Below, one piece after another: positions 1,542-6,800 of a stretch of 64,000 nt of DNA (position 1 is the first letter of the stretch; each line of letters opens with the position of its first letter). The position numbers and the translations under genes were made by a program. A model generated the notes under the pieces. It was not told the origin of the DNA. It made no database searches and saw only the letters and a program-made list of their open reading frames with translations. Source of the stretch: Prochlorococcus marinus CUG1415 (GTDB taxonomy: Bacteria; Cyanobacteriota; Cyanobacteriia; PCC-6307; Cyanobiaceae); NCBI RefSeq assembly GCF_017696015.1, contig NZ_JAAORL010000001.1:930001-994000 (forward strand), written 5' to 3'.

Positions 1542-1618
1542 CGCGGGGTAGAGCAGTCTGGTAGCTCGTCGGGCTCATAACCCGAAGGTCGGAAGTTCAA
1601 ATCTCCCCCCCGCCACCA
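1542..1618 (+). tRNA. Initiator tRNA-fMet (CAU)
   Basis: A 77-nt cloverleaf with anticodon CAT at about 1576-1578 and an encoded CCA end. Two initiator features are visible: position 1 (C) cannot pair with position 72 (C), and the anticodon stem ends in three G:C pairs (GGG/CCC). The other acceptor pairs are intact. It is followed at once by a terminator and a tyrosine recombinase, making it the likely insertion site of the island downstream. Confidence 0.96.
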
Positions 1619-1625
1619 AAGATAT

Positions 1626-1648
1626 AGCCTCCATTAGGGGGCTTTTTT
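1626..1648 (+). terminator. Rho-independent terminator of tRNA-fMet
   Basis: A seven-pair stem (AGCCTCC / GGGGGCT, one G-U pair) around a short AT-rich loop, followed by six Ts. It lies 7 nt after the CCA end and would end the tRNA transcript before the recombinase gene. Confidence 0.85.
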
Positions 1649-1744
1649 ATTGCAAATACTAGGTTTTCAAGTGTCAGTCCTAACTTTACTTAGAGTTCTG
1701 TGTGTGATTTAATCAGTATGTACAGGTCACGTTTATGTGGTTTC

Positions 1745-1765
1745 AAGTAGACTTCAGGTAGACTT
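1745..1765 (+). repeat. Tandem 10-bp repeat just upstream of the integrase
   Basis: AAGTAGACTT (1745-1754) and AGGTAGACTT (1756-1765) are near-identical direct repeats one base apart and end two bases before the integrase ATG. Possible roles are an operator for autoregulation or arm-type sites for the recombinase or its directionality factor; the sequence does not decide. Confidence 0.5.
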
Positions 1766-1767
1766 TT

Positions 1768-3114
1768 ATGAAAAGATCACGCAATAAAATAAGAGATTGG
1801 GATGATGTAGTCGGTTTTTTAATGGATATTGATGCAAGATATATGGTTCGTAGGTATACAAAATCTCCATTTTTAAGCATTAGAGATAAACAAACTAAGA
1901 AACAATATTCATTAAAACCAATAAAAGCGTTTAAAAATATAGATCAAATATTATCTGTTTCAAGATTAATAGAACACGTTGGTAATCAAGAATGGAATTT
2001 AGATATACCGATTCTCGATCAACTTGCATATTTAGATAACCCAAATCTAGAAATAGATAAAGAACAACCCTTATATAGTTGGAATGATATTTCTAAAATT
2101 ACTATTGAATATTTAGATAAAACTCAAAAACGATCTAGTGCAAAAAATACTAAAGCTGATTTAAATAATCTTGTTAATTCAAATACTTCTATTAATTGGA
2201 ACTCTATAAAAAGATGGGTATTTGAAAAAAATGTAGAAAGTAGACCATTTAAAAATAGATTAGATTCACTTGAACAAATTAGATTAGCTTTATCAAGTAC
2301 TAATGGTAATGAACCAAACTTTATTCCTAAAACTTATTTAACTGTTTTAAGAGAGCAACATAATAGAGAAGCTAGAAAAATAAATAAATATATTCCTACT
2401 AAAGAGTTTGGAAACATAAGAGGAATACCAACTAAAGAAGAAGCTGAACAATACTTTGATTCATTAGACAAAGAGTTTGAATTAGAAAAATGGTACTTAG
2501 CTATTCAACTTTGTTATGGGTTAAGAAACCATGAACTATTCCATATTGAAAAGGTTAAAAAGAACTCGGTTAAAGATTCTGAGAAATGGATATATATTCC
2601 AGGGGGATGGAGAACTAAAAGTAAATACGAGCATTATGCTTTTCCTTTATATCCTGATTGGATTAAGAAATATAAGCTATTAAAAAACTTTGATTCTATG
2701 CAAAAGCAATTAAGAACTAAAGCATCAATGGTTATTAAAAGTACTAGAGATAAAACTAAAGATGTTGATCCAAAAGATTTAAATGATGTTGGTGTATGTG
2801 TTAATAACGATTATTTAGGTGAATGGATTGGTAGAAGATTATTAAAAGCATTACCTCCATTACTTGCCTCAATTCCTAATAAGAAAGGATTAACTAATAA
2901 GAGTGATAAGAAAGAAAGAATAACTGCATATGACCTAAGACATACTTATGCAATCAGACTTGCAACTGATCCAAGATTTGAACAAATAACAATAGAGCAA
3001 GCGGCTCAAGCAATGGGGCATGATGTATCTACACATAAAAAGCATTATCAATATTGGATAAGTAGTGAAGAAAAGAAAAAGCAAATTATGTTTTCTACTT
3101 CAATACCTGAGTAA
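1768..3114 (+). CDS. Tyrosine recombinase/integrase next to tRNA-fMet
   Basis: This 448-residue protein has a tyrosine-recombinase catalytic domain in its C-terminal half. Visible active-site residues are the first Arg in GLRNHE (about residue 252), the DLRHTY box (Arg about 390; the preceding His of the usual HxLRH motif is Tyr here), the MGH histidine (about 417) and the nucleophile region HYQYW near 427. About 230 N-terminal residues form the presumed DNA-binding part. It lies 150 bp from the tRNA, on the same strand, as in tRNA-targeting islands and the tycheposons described from Prochlorococcus. It appears intact. The target inside the tRNA gene is inferred. Confidence 0.92.
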   Translation: MKRSRNKIRDWDDVVGFLMDIDARYMVRRYTKSPFLSIRDKQTKKQYSLKPIKAFKNIDQILSVSRLIEHVGNQEWNLDIPILDQLAYLDNPNLEIDKEQPLYSWNDISKITIEYLDKTQKRSSAKNTKADLNNLVNSNTSINWNSIKRWVFEKNVESRPFKNRLDSLEQIRLALSSTNGNEPNFIPKTYLTVLREQHNREARKINKYIPTKEFGNIRGIPTKEEAEQYFDSLDKEFELEKWYLAIQLCYGLRNHELFHIEKVKKNSVKDSEKWIYIPGGWRTKSKYEHYAFPLYPDWIKKYKLLKNFDSMQKQLRTKASMVIKSTRDKTKDVDPKDLNDVGVCVNNDYLGEWIGRRLLKALPPLLASIPNKKGLTNKSDKKERITAYDLRHTYAIRLATDPRFEQITIEQAAQAMGHDVSTHKKHYQYWISSEEKKKQIMFSTSIPE

Positions 3115-3148
3115 AATTAGTAAAGGTGATAGGACAAAAAAGTTAACC

Positions 3149-3400
3149 ATGTGGTGCAGTTTTAGTGAAGCTAGTAAACTTCTGGGTTACAAATCTCGTT
3201 CTACTTTGTACCAATTAAAAAATAAGGGTTTATTAGACGATTATTTAGAAGAAATTGAAGGTAAAACATACCTTTATATGCGAAAAAAGAACGGCAAAAC
3301 CCTTGCAAAACATATAAGAGCCAATGTTTTTGATCGTAATGGCTTTATGTGTAATAACTTTGATCCTGATAAGTACATAGAAAGCCTTAGAGAGCTTTAA
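3149..3400 (+). CDS. Small helix-turn-helix protein, possible recombination directionality factor
   Basis: An 83-residue protein with an N-terminal HTH-like segment (FSEASKLLGYKSRSTLYQLKNKG) that resembles MerR/excisionase-type or helix-turn-helix type 17 domains, followed by a basic middle and an acidic end. It starts 34 bp after the integrase stop. A longer reading from 3065 would overlap the integrase by 50 bp; I prefer the ATG at 3149, where the HTH begins. Its position suggests an Xis-like or regulatory partner of the recombinase, which is an inference. Confidence 0.62.
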   Translation: MWCSFSEASKLLGYKSRSTLYQLKNKGLLDDYLEEIEGKTYLYMRKKNGKTLAKHIRANVFDRNGFMCNNFDPDKYIESLREL

Positions 3401-3523
3401 ATCGCACTAAATCGTCTTAATTACGCTCTAAAAAGACATAGCAAAGTGTCCTACAAAATAATTCCTCACGTTAGATAAAAAAAGACCGTTTGAACGACCC
3501 ACAGGGAAACCTCTAGAAAGAAC

Positions 3524-5615: not shown

Positions 5616-5617
5616 AA

Positions 5618-5842
5618 ATGAAAAACAAAATTCTACCTTTTATCAAAAAGTACCCAATGAGCATCTTATTAGCGATTATTGCTCTTAATTTGTTCTCTAT
5701 TGCAGGGAGTTTAAAGACTTCAGCAAAACTTGATTATAAGAAATTAGTTTGTTTAGAAGAAGGCAGATATACAAAGAAACAAATGCAAAAGAAACTTGGT
5801 TCTAAATATTATTCAAGACAATGCAATATGCTTTCCTATTGA
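5618..5842 (+). CDS. Small membrane protein
   Basis: 74 residues with one hydrophobic segment (PMSILLAIIALNLFSIAG) and a basic tail with two Cys (LVCLEEGRYTKKQ, SRQCNML). The in-frame TTG at 5612 overlaps the previous stop, but the ATG at 5618 is preferred. It is paired with the upstream single-helix protein. Function unknown. Confidence 0.6.
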   Translation: MKNKILPFIKKYPMSILLAIIALNLFSIAGSLKTSAKLDYKKLVCLEEGRYTKKQMQKKLGSKYYSRQCNMLSY

Positions 5843-5951
5843 GTTCCCTTTAGTTCCCTTTATACACCCTGTTTTTTTGGTGATTTTCTTGCTTTGTCCT
5901 TAATTTTTCGTAATTATGCGTATATAGGCTTTCACATAGGGGTTGACGATT

Positions 5952-6212
5952 ATGAAAATTCCAAACAAGATGTTGAAAGAAATTAGAAAAAGTGGATACA
6001 ATAAAAAGCTTGTACATAACTACATAAAAGAGCTATTAGACAGCGAGAAAGAAGATAACAATCTAGAGCTTATAGACAATTACTTACTAGATAATGATCT
6101 AAAAGAACCTACTGCTGAGATAATGATGGCAGCAGACCTTATAGACGAATACGCATTAGATAAAAGATTTATGAGAGAGCTTGAAGATAGAGATCAATAT
6201 GAGGCTGCTTAA
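5952..6212 (+). CDS. Small acidic, Leu/Asp-rich hypothetical protein
   Basis: 86 soluble, probably all-helical residues with a basic first third (KIPNKMLKEIRKSGYNKK) and a strongly acidic rest (SEKEDNNLELIDNYLLDNDL). Such short acidic proteins occur in phage and island cargo, sometimes as DNA mimics or antitoxins, but nothing here proves that. ATG chosen over an upstream in-frame TTG at 5943; the run AGGGG lies 9-13 nt before the ATG. Confidence 0.6.
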   Translation: MKIPNKMLKEIRKSGYNKKLVHNYIKELLDSEKEDNNLELIDNYLLDNDLKEPTAEIMMAADLIDEYALDKRFMRELEDRDQYEAA

Positions 6213-6214
6213 AA

Positions 6215-6343
6215 ATGGCTATTAATTATATGGCAAAATTAATTTTATTATTTGCTCTTTATTGCATTTCTGATTTATCAATAAAAAAGGATATTTTAAG
6301 AAAAGCTGTTCGCAGGGCTAATAGAGCTAGATCAATTTTTTAA
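6215..6343 (+). CDS. Small membrane protein with basic tail (42 aa)
   Basis: 42 residues: one hydrophobic helix (YMAKLILLFALYCISDL) and a basic tail rich in Arg and Ala (LRKAVRRANRARSIF). It starts two bases after the preceding stop and ends where the opposite-strand DUF1651-like gene ends. Likely co-transcribed with the acidic protein before it. Confidence 0.5.
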   Translation: MAINYMAKLILLFALYCISDLSIKKDILRKAVRRANRARSIF

Positions 6344-6592
6344 TTAAAAATAGCTATTAAATATAGAAGTTTTCTTCCATCCTTCCTGTAGGAGTTGCTT
6401 ATATTCTTTTCTTGCAGCCTCAACAGTTTCCACCCTGCTACCTTTCATTACTGGTTTACTTGATCTCTTATAAACGCAACCATAAGAAATCATCATTGCA
6501 TCAATAGTTGGGGATGGTTTAGATACATCTTCAAATGGTTCAAATACTTTAATTCTGGATCTATCTTTATTTATTAGGGTGAATTTATCCAT
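6344..6592 (-). CDS. DUF1651-like small protein
   Basis: 82 residues with the C-terminal pattern SRVETVEAARKEYKQLLQEGWKK, which resembles the DUF1651 family (PF07864) of marine picocyanobacteria. No catalytic motif is visible and the role is unknown. It converges with the small membrane gene and is the last island-type gene before the tRNA-like fragments at 6608. Confidence 0.6.
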   Translation of the reverse strand: MDKFTLINKDRSRIKVFEPFEDVSKPSPTIDAMMISYGCVYKRSSKPVMKGSRVETVEAARKEYKQLLQEGWKKTSIFNSYF

Positions 6593-6607
6593 TTATATAG
6601 TTTAACT

Positions 6608-6800
6608 CCCGAAGAAAATGGTCGGGAAGTTGTGTTTTATTAGTGATAGTAATAGATTTAGTGCTTTTCCTTCCCATTGAATATAGATATACCCTAAATT
6701 AAGATATTTTTGACCCCTTTCTCTCTATCGGGAACTGGGAACTGTAAAACAAGACTATAACTATAGTTTGCTTATTCCCGAAGGTTTCTATCGGGAACTG
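6608..6800. repeat. Cluster of CCCGAAG/TCGGGAA inverted repeats with tRNA similarity
   Basis: TATCGGGAACTG occurs twice exactly (6726-6737 and 6789-6800). CCCGAAGGT at 6777-6785 is identical to tRNA-fMet bases 1581-1589 on the 3' side of the anticodon loop. At 6608-6630 CCCGAAG and GGTCGGGAAGT again resemble the tRNA segment CCCGAAGGTCGGAAGT but are split by five bases. Two short hairpins result (6606-6630; 6775-6797). This could be an attachment-site remnant, recombinase binding sites or gene-end hairpins. Confidence 0.45.

Follow-up and report, generated by a model that had tools for sequence, protein, structure and literature searches.

What is the 5.4-kb stretch of DNA that follows the initiator tRNA gene, tRNA-fMet, of Prochlorococcus marinus CUG1415, and how did it come to lie there? 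The flexible gene pool of Prochlorococcus is huge, and we know of no classical transfer machinery in the genus as it is generally described. Tycheposons, which Hackl et al. reportedly published in 2023, are said to include some elements that are viral satellites and others that carry cargo; their recombinases reportedly belong to a deep-branching clade. We analysed a window of 64,000 nt (assembly GCF_017696015.1, contig NZ_JAAORL010000001.1, positions 930,001-994,000 of the forward strand), for which an earlier note had proposed a short, tycheposon-like element at tRNA-fMet carrying small genes of unknown function. We consider it likely that the stretch is a tycheposon-type integrative element that arose from a capsid-encoding phage satellite, had its capsid gene replaced by cargo and was later immobilised. 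Compared genomes are given below as G-numbers (the window's own being G000) and extracted loci as L-numbers, and the coordinates of all features are collected in Table 1.

Of 200 congeneric genomes, 154 gave a match to the asparaginase gene that stands upstream of the site; among the 66 with at least 90% completeness and at most 5% contamination, the number is 61. All of these 61 near-complete genomes (60 relatives and the window's own) were included in a survey of the site. The site is empty in 43 of them, the tRNA being followed within 3-105 bp by sequence like that of the window from about 7001-7120, which is the allele that the earlier note had suggested looking for. A bounded element is present in six genomes, namely the window (5.4 kb), G182 (5.6 kb), G084 (7.7 kb), G110 (14.8 kb), G158 (~3.1 kb) and G181 (~6.3 kb, an approximate size because the contig terminates inside the tRNA remnant). 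In two others (G038 and G155) an integrase is present and the right end is out of reach, and the remaining ten (G010, G015, G022, G025, G104, G105, G106, G118, G143 and G144) are unsettled owing to a different flank, a short contig or a relic. The 5.4-kb stretch is a real, polymorphic insertion without counterpart in most of the relatives examined. Moreover, the same genes are not shared by all relatives, the outcome that would have spoken against an element, in that its recombinase family occurs in 16 of 266 genomes and in six of 87 near-complete ones. The insertion ends at about 7011-7021, beyond position 6800 where the border had previously been drawn.

Elements at this site for which both ends are available have a whole tRNA on the left and, on the right, a 3' fragment beginning at tRNA position 30-33. 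Remnants start at position 28-33 in G110, G125, G182, G084, G181, G158, G210, provirus G266 and phage P-SS2, which places the crossover in the anticodon-loop region (window ~1569-1574). In G110 the intact left tRNA has the 3' allele TCTTCTCCCCGCC and the ~50-bp 3' remnant on the right is of another allele, as expected if the element supplies its own tRNA 3' part and crosses over in the anticodon-loop region. A right-end remnant is retained in eight of the ten tRNA-fMet elements with a resolved right end (the elements just listed other than P-SS2, with G266 lacking a left flank), the exceptions being the window and the decayed G256. Contigs L150 and L152, filed under Flavobacteriales and Euryarchaeota, have a remnant but no whole tRNA and were excluded from this count.

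The intact tyrosine recombinase that had been placed some 150 bp behind the initiator tRNA is indeed there, as an open reading frame (ORF) of full length. Its match to the Pfam Phage_integrase family is below threshold (14.9 bits against a cut-off of 27.1), and its AlphaFold model (mean predicted local distance difference test score, pLDDT, 79.7) resembles lambda Int, Tn1549 Int and Cre, with a best E-value of 2.3e-5. The protein has Arg253, Arg391, His418 and Tyr427, which we take to be the catalytic residues; all four are found in 11 of 12 aligned homologues, and the integrase of L148 (G123) lacks two of them. The recombinase stands beside tRNA-fMet in 14 of the 16 genomes that carry the family, in some cases as a fragment (G189 and G256) or otherwise damaged, by an internal stop in G021 and by the missing residues in G123. 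The closest relative is G210 (scB243_495D8; JFLT01000150), whose integrase is 76% identical to that of the window; the window-type left end is also seen in G210, G256 and G104. The gene that had been read as helix-turn-helix (HTH) beside the recombinase is likewise upheld, with identities of 84% to its G210 counterpart and about 50% to those of satellites. Between the window and G210 the ratio of nonsynonymous to synonymous substitution rates (dN/dS) is 0.17 for the integrase, 0.15 for the HTH gene and 0.09 for asparaginase, so the integrase has been under purifying selection. The integrase dS of 0.81 exceeds the 0.48 of the adjacent host gene, a hint that inheritance along with the host does not by itself account for the two copies.

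The family has few relatives elsewhere. A search of named bacterial genomes gave 27 loci, 13 of them from Prochlorococcus, and every one of the 12 loci with at least 40% identity is among these 13; viral contigs gave one relative, and among 50,697 phage records the sole relatives at E 1e-5 are three P-SS2 entries with ~25% identity. The integrase of a 42-kb provirus at tRNA-fMet is 49% identical. In an 18-row integrase tree the window and G210 are paired at 100/100, the provirus integrase is next (85/94, not starred), and the integrases of satellites in tRNA-Pro arrays form a separate group.

The case for a satellite origin comes from the other end of the element and from its gene order. In G024 a satellite, located in a tandem array of tRNA-Pro fragments, has the order AAA_25 ATPase (PF13481, 4.9e-11), noncoding block, DUF1651-like gene, capsid, HTH genes and integrase. 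The window has this order reversed: integrase, HTH, cargo at the capsid position, DUF1651-like gene, noncoding block and ATPase tail. The DUF1651-like gene has 94% identity to its G024 counterpart, which stands between ATPase and capsid, and the ATPase tail is 82% identical over 77 aa. Of a satellite core of integrase, HTH and ATPase or primase, the window has intact integrase and HTH genes and, of the ATPase, a tail of 77 codons. ORF 6788-6994, which was at first taken for an unknown gene since it has no PHROG, NCBIfam or Pfam match, proved to be this tail. None of the small ORFs scanned, earlier suggested to be cargo of unknown function, reaches a curated cut-off, and the last two, the DUF1651-like gene and the ATPase tail, are satellite genes.

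The noncoding block is evidence of the same kind. A model built from G024, G133 and G234 only recovers the window at E 3.4e-34, G026 at 4.2e-31 and G094 at 8.1e-14 among 308 sequences; an earlier model contained the window copy, and its window score of 5.3e-49 is a product of that construction. In all five satellites that have the block (G024, G133, G234, G094 and G026) it lies between ATPase and capsid, and over the extracted loci nhmmer finds it in these five capsid satellites and the window only. Between window and G024 the block is 81% identical, compared to 65% at third codon positions in the ATPase tail and 78% in the DUF1651-like gene (a slight excess), implying that it is probably functional in satellites; it may be an origin or a packaging signal.

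A capsid satellite with the window's integrase type is found in G210. Beyond its integrase and HTH genes, the ~7-kb G210 element encodes a capsid-protease fusion (phrog_617, 6.8e-109), a VapE-like helicase (PF05272, 5.2e-59) and an excisionase-like HTH protein (phrog_66, 1.3e-6); its contig runs out 20 bases into the tRNA remnant, at the start of the right attachment site (attR). Capsid relatives occur in 19 of 265 genomes, G210 among them, and the window's own genome gives no capsid match at E<=1e-8. Outside these genomes, relatives of the G024 capsid comprise 64 loci in viral contigs, where best segments of at most 50% identity indicate no close satellite, and 187 phage records, all below 60% identity.

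The right end of the window's element departs from the pattern of its relatives. Homology to the ATPase gene extends to position 7021, and homology to empty sites begins at 7012 or slightly before. The 10-bp word at this joint, CTTCACAGCT, is common to the G024 ATPase gene and the tRNA-fMet terminator of G170, from which it appears that a single deletion probably removed attR; in 13 of 57 loci the sequence after the tRNA is CTTCAC[AG]GCTGC. No right-end tRNA remnant was revealed by blastn-short in the window or by local alignment against shuffled sequence. The highest-scoring tRNA match within the last 450 bp is CCCGAAGGT (6777-6785), with a score of 18 (shuffles: median 14, 95% 17, maximum 22); for 3.6 kb the forward score is 18 and the reverse score 22 (shuffles: median 17, 95% 21, maximum 26). 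We rejected CCCGAAGGT as attR because this 9-mer belongs to a hairpin of the satellite noncoding block. In the whole genome the 25-base tRNA core occurs once at up to three mismatches, and no attR was found. Ordinary excision should fail if attR is missing. The proposal of a tycheposon-like element at tRNA-fMet is thus supported by the polymorphic insertion and the attachment (att) pairs of the family, and has to be amended in that this copy is satellite-derived and its attR was not found.

From these features we infer an order of events, a loss of mobility and a deletion mechanism. An ancestral satellite with the order integrase, HTH, capsid, DUF1651-like gene, noncoding block and ATPase would have entered tRNA-fMet by means of its own tyrosine recombinase, crossing over in the anticodon loop and supplying the 3' part of the tRNA. 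Small island genes amounting to 2-3 kb would then have taken the place of its capsid gene, two of them preceded by a leader that Prochlorococcus genomes share. Later, a deletion between 10-bp repeats, one within the ATPase gene and one within the tRNA terminator, would have taken the N-terminus of the ATPase, the genes beyond and attR, probably in a single event to judge from the one joint, and would probably have left the copy fixed in place despite its intact integrase. If so, one 5.4-kb stretch makes visible how a satellite became a gene carrier and then got stuck: the parts retained, the point where cargo entered and the loss of the exit.

Several observations weigh against this account. 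We found no intact satellite with both the window's integrase type and an ATPase-type core, the core of G210 being of the VapE type and G024 having a different integrase in a tRNA-Pro array, and the proposed ancestor is consequently a composite. The word at the joint is short, and the ATPase and terminator stretches in question have another 10-mer in common by chance. The local tRNA match at the right end is just over the 95th percentile of shuffles, and an attR diverged at more than 3 of 25 bases is conceivable. In addition, purifying selection on the integrase between window and G210 is also compatible with an element that is still mobile, and DUF1651-like genes occur without the noncoding block in G182 and G143, so that this gene alone is not diagnostic.

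A broader scheme, which seems to us doubtful, would have capsid satellites serve as a chassis for cargo islands: the capsid would be replaced, the integrase, HTH gene and block (as origin or packaging signal) would be kept, the product would be replicated and packaged in trans by intact satellites, and the target tRNA would change with a swap of integrase, the window being a late, immobilised member. Integrase and core are indeed exchanged, since the capsids of G210 and G234 are 98.7% identical and their integrases fall into two different tree groups, G210 having a tRNA-fMet integrase and G234 an unrelated one between tRNA-Pro fragments, a swap that changes the target tRNA. As a general rule, however, the scheme is at odds with the nhmmer result that the block was not found in the cargo elements of G110, G182, G084 and G181, because its confinement to capsid satellites and the window counts against packaging in trans.

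We find it improbable that the element is an intact and currently mobile cargo tycheposon, excised by its integrase, with the HTH protein as excisionase, from the left attachment site (attL) and an unrecognised attR. Its uninterrupted integrase ORF, the dN/dS value of 0.17 against G210 and the complete att pairs of relatives at tRNA-fMet would all suit such an element, but no right-end remnant was found in the window or genome at the thresholds used, and of ten resolved elements the only other one without a remnant is decayed. Similarly improbable is a cargo island that came first and captured the ATPase tail, noncoding block and DUF1651-like gene later by recombination. Island genes do move freely (abm86 matches are found in 168 of 265 genomes), and DUF1651-like genes are present in cargo elements without integrase; nevertheless, the three pieces are contiguous, in satellite order and orientation and with DNA identities of ~80-90%, and at the opposite end there are further satellite genes, those for HTH and integrase. 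A degraded siphovirus prophage, to which the integrase would point through its 49% identity to that of the provirus and its distant kinship with that of P-SS2, is very improbable, as the remaining pieces match satellites and not the provirus, the block lies between ATPase and capsid in five satellites, and nhmmer gives no block match in the provirus loci. Finally, the chance that this is an ordinary hypervariable island formed by homologous recombination, with the integrase incidental, is negligible in spite of the locus being a known hypervariable breakpoint (PMC2784084), given the sharp tRNA boundary, the att remnants at defined tRNA positions in G110, G125 and G182 and the allele difference in G110.

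How does the element compare to systems already described? In the sections of PMC10872708 that we consulted, tycheposons use a set of tRNAs that includes tRNA-Met (which tRNA-Met is not said) and measure 4-200 kb with cargo. The window element resembles them in being linked to a tRNA, small (~5.4 kb), equipped with a tyrosine recombinase and cargo, and strain-polymorphic with an empty site, and differs in its mixture of satellite scars and cargo and in having no distal tRNA remnant that we could find. We class it, following this secondary description, as tycheposon-derived and probably immobilised. Capsid-encoding phage satellites are termed cfPICI in PMC11389934. The window's relatives resemble these in gene content: ~7 kb of DNA encodes an integrase, an HTH protein, a capsid-protease fusion and either VapE or an AAA ATPase, and no large terminase was seen among their scanned ORFs. 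The window copy is unlike them in having no capsid gene and an ATPase tail only. G210 shares with it the left end and tRNA as well as the integrase and HTH genes, and differs in encoding capsid and helicase. Unlike a temperate phage, the window has no terminase, portal or tail genes among the ORFs scanned.

The site itself is not new. From 21 genomes, Sullivan et al. (2009) proposed the tRNA-Met and ansA locus as the integration site of P-SS2 and a hypervariable breakpoint (PMC2784084, as excerpted), and the locus is thus already published as a hypervariable integration site. By that description, of an asparaginase gene next to tRNA-Met, the window's site is the same locus. The P-SS2 genome has a 43-bp match to tRNA-fMet (97.7%, positions 28-70) at 215 bp before its integrase. 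Compared to the 2009 account, we now resolve at the locus satellite, prophage and cargo elements together with their att remnants. What we add is the architecture of one copy, with its satellite scars, its replacement by cargo and the short-repeat joint where attR is missing, and the noncoding block conserved in satellites.

Table 1. Features of the tRNA-fMet element and its borders (window coordinates; aa, amino acids)
Feature	Position	Strand	Basis or remark
tRNA-fMet (CAT), attachment gene, attL intact	1542..1618	+	Rfam tRNA, 59.5 bits at 1542-1615
Left end: element's own tRNA terminator and region before recombinase	1619..1767	.	69% identity to G210
Intact 448-aa integrase (tyrosine recombinase) of the fMet-site family	1768..3114	+	149 bp after tRNA
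Small HTH protein, related to integrase-side HTH of satellites	3149..3400	+	HTH_17 match weak, below cut-off
Cargo, 82 aa, likely secreted (signal-like N-terminus, our reading)	3524..3772	-	ORF
Cargo tm172, 172-aa multi-pass membrane protein	3769..4287	-	ORF, hydrophobic stretches
44-bp putative leader repeat, copy 1 (ATTGACAGTCGATCTAA, hairpin, T-run)	4289..4332	-	Just before start codon of 3769-4287
Cargo sec161, 161 aa (ATG at 4802), likely secreted	4338..4823	-	Matches in 5/265 genomes including own
Cargo tm47, 47-aa hydrophobic ORF	4820..4963	-	ORF, hydrophobic stretch
Cargo abm86, 86 aa, predicted dimeric alpha+beta-barrel-like fold	4981..5241	-	Matches in 168/265 genomes including own
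44-bp putative leader repeat, copy 2	5242..5285	-	Directly before start codon of 4981-5241
Cargo m88, 88-aa membrane-anchored ORF	5349..5615	+	Hydrophobic stretch
Cargo m75, ~75-aa membrane ORF	5612..5842	+	Relative 74% identical in G125 element (L049)
Cargo ac89, 89-aa acidic ORF	5943..6212	+	Relatives in other Prochlorococcus loci bearing leader motif
Cargo, 42-aa ORF, doubtful	6215..6343	+	ORF
DUF1651-like gene	6344..6592	-	Pfam 21.6 against cut-off of 22.0 bits, E 3e-4
Satellite conserved noncoding block, ~200 bp, TTCCCGA/TCGGGAA inverted repeats	6594..6797	-	81% identical to G024 (195 columns)
Last 77 codons (3' end) of truncated satellite AAA_25 ATPase gene, with ORF remnant 6788-6994	6788..7021	-	G024 match
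Putative right deletion joint, 10-bp word CTTCACAGCT; then native flank, no attR	7012..7021	.	ATPase/tRNA-terminator overlap

The cargo agrees with the previous description of a strand-mixed set of small secreted, membrane and acidic genes, tm172, tm47, m88 and m75 having hydrophobic stretches and abm86 and ac89 having isoelectric points of 4.6-4.7. When the small ORFs were scanned against Pfam and NCBIfam (not every ORF being part of each scan), none of those scanned reached a curated cut-off, the DUF1651 match being 0.4 bits short. The fold of abm86, predicted to be like a dimeric alpha+beta barrel, comes from a single-sequence model (pLDDT 86.3) with a best Foldseek E-value of 1.9e-3 and none below 0.001. 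A relative of sec161 in G214 lies within a short stretch between tRNA-Pro fragments. The cargo is thus drawn from a common pool of island genes.

The 44-bp repeat ahead of two cargo genes was first thought to be specific to these elements, which was ruled out when its motif ATTGACAGTCGATCTAA (up to one mismatch) was found in 261 of 265 genomes, with a backward control of 0 among the genomes listed; the motif is accordingly genus-wide. Within the loci there are 86 distinct occurrences, a few from viral contigs, of which 47 have an ATG-started ORF of at least 35 codons within 60 nt, and 39 of these ORFs begin at 42-45 nt; the control is 256 of 1720 random places. A stem of at least six pairs (G-U allowed), with arms that vary, is present in 57 of 79 distinct copies compared to 19% of base shuffles, and an Rfam scan of the window gave no match to the repeat. 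It looks like a mobile promoter or 5' leader of island genes. A 48-bp Prochlorococcus island repeat, PRE1, was reportedly described by Coleman in 2006, and the 44-bp repeat may be identical with it.

Other elements at tRNA-fMet carry different contents. Those of G182 (L097), G084 (L183), G181 (L205) and G158 (L202) have att remnants, no recombinase match and a longest ORF of 141 aa, and have possibly moved in trans or lost an integrase; among their cargo are MarR-like genes and others resembling high-light-inducible genes (a weak match, below cut-off), and a similar, unbounded element in G143 has a ClpS gene (6.3e-11). The siphovirus-like provirus IMGVR_UViG_2716884731_000001 (42,221 bp; L165, L167 and L168) encodes a large terminase, portal, capsid-protease and tape measure protein. 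The related integrase lies at one of its ends, and close to the opposite end is a 45-bp remnant of tRNA-fMet (L168:15099-15143). DNA beyond this remnant matches Prochlorococcus G015 at 90% identity over 855 bp, the stretch itself being flexible (83% over 198 bp in the G182 element). The provirus terminase was found in none of 264 congeneric genomes, in a search without a positive control genome. According to a 2021 paper, neither isolates of Prochlorococcus and marine Synechococcus nor hundreds of single-cell genomes contain intact prophages (PMC8776855).

At tRNA-Pro(TGG), 3' fragments occur in tandem, up to seven per 20 kb, between capsid satellites and short cargo units (L232, L233, L234, L238 and L241), in what the sequences indicate are arrays of accreted elements. 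In G133 (L234) two capsid satellites lie in tandem within 14 kb, their capsids being 98% and 56% identical to that of G210. Broken integrase copies in G118 (L053) and G016 (L055) are located directly upstream of another tRNA-Met(CAT), not tRNA-fMet. The window's own genome has a second, distant tyrosine recombinase gene (389 aa; G000:C1:497780-498298, L032), with no tRNA within the locus, which adjoins what we read as a cobO-like gene.

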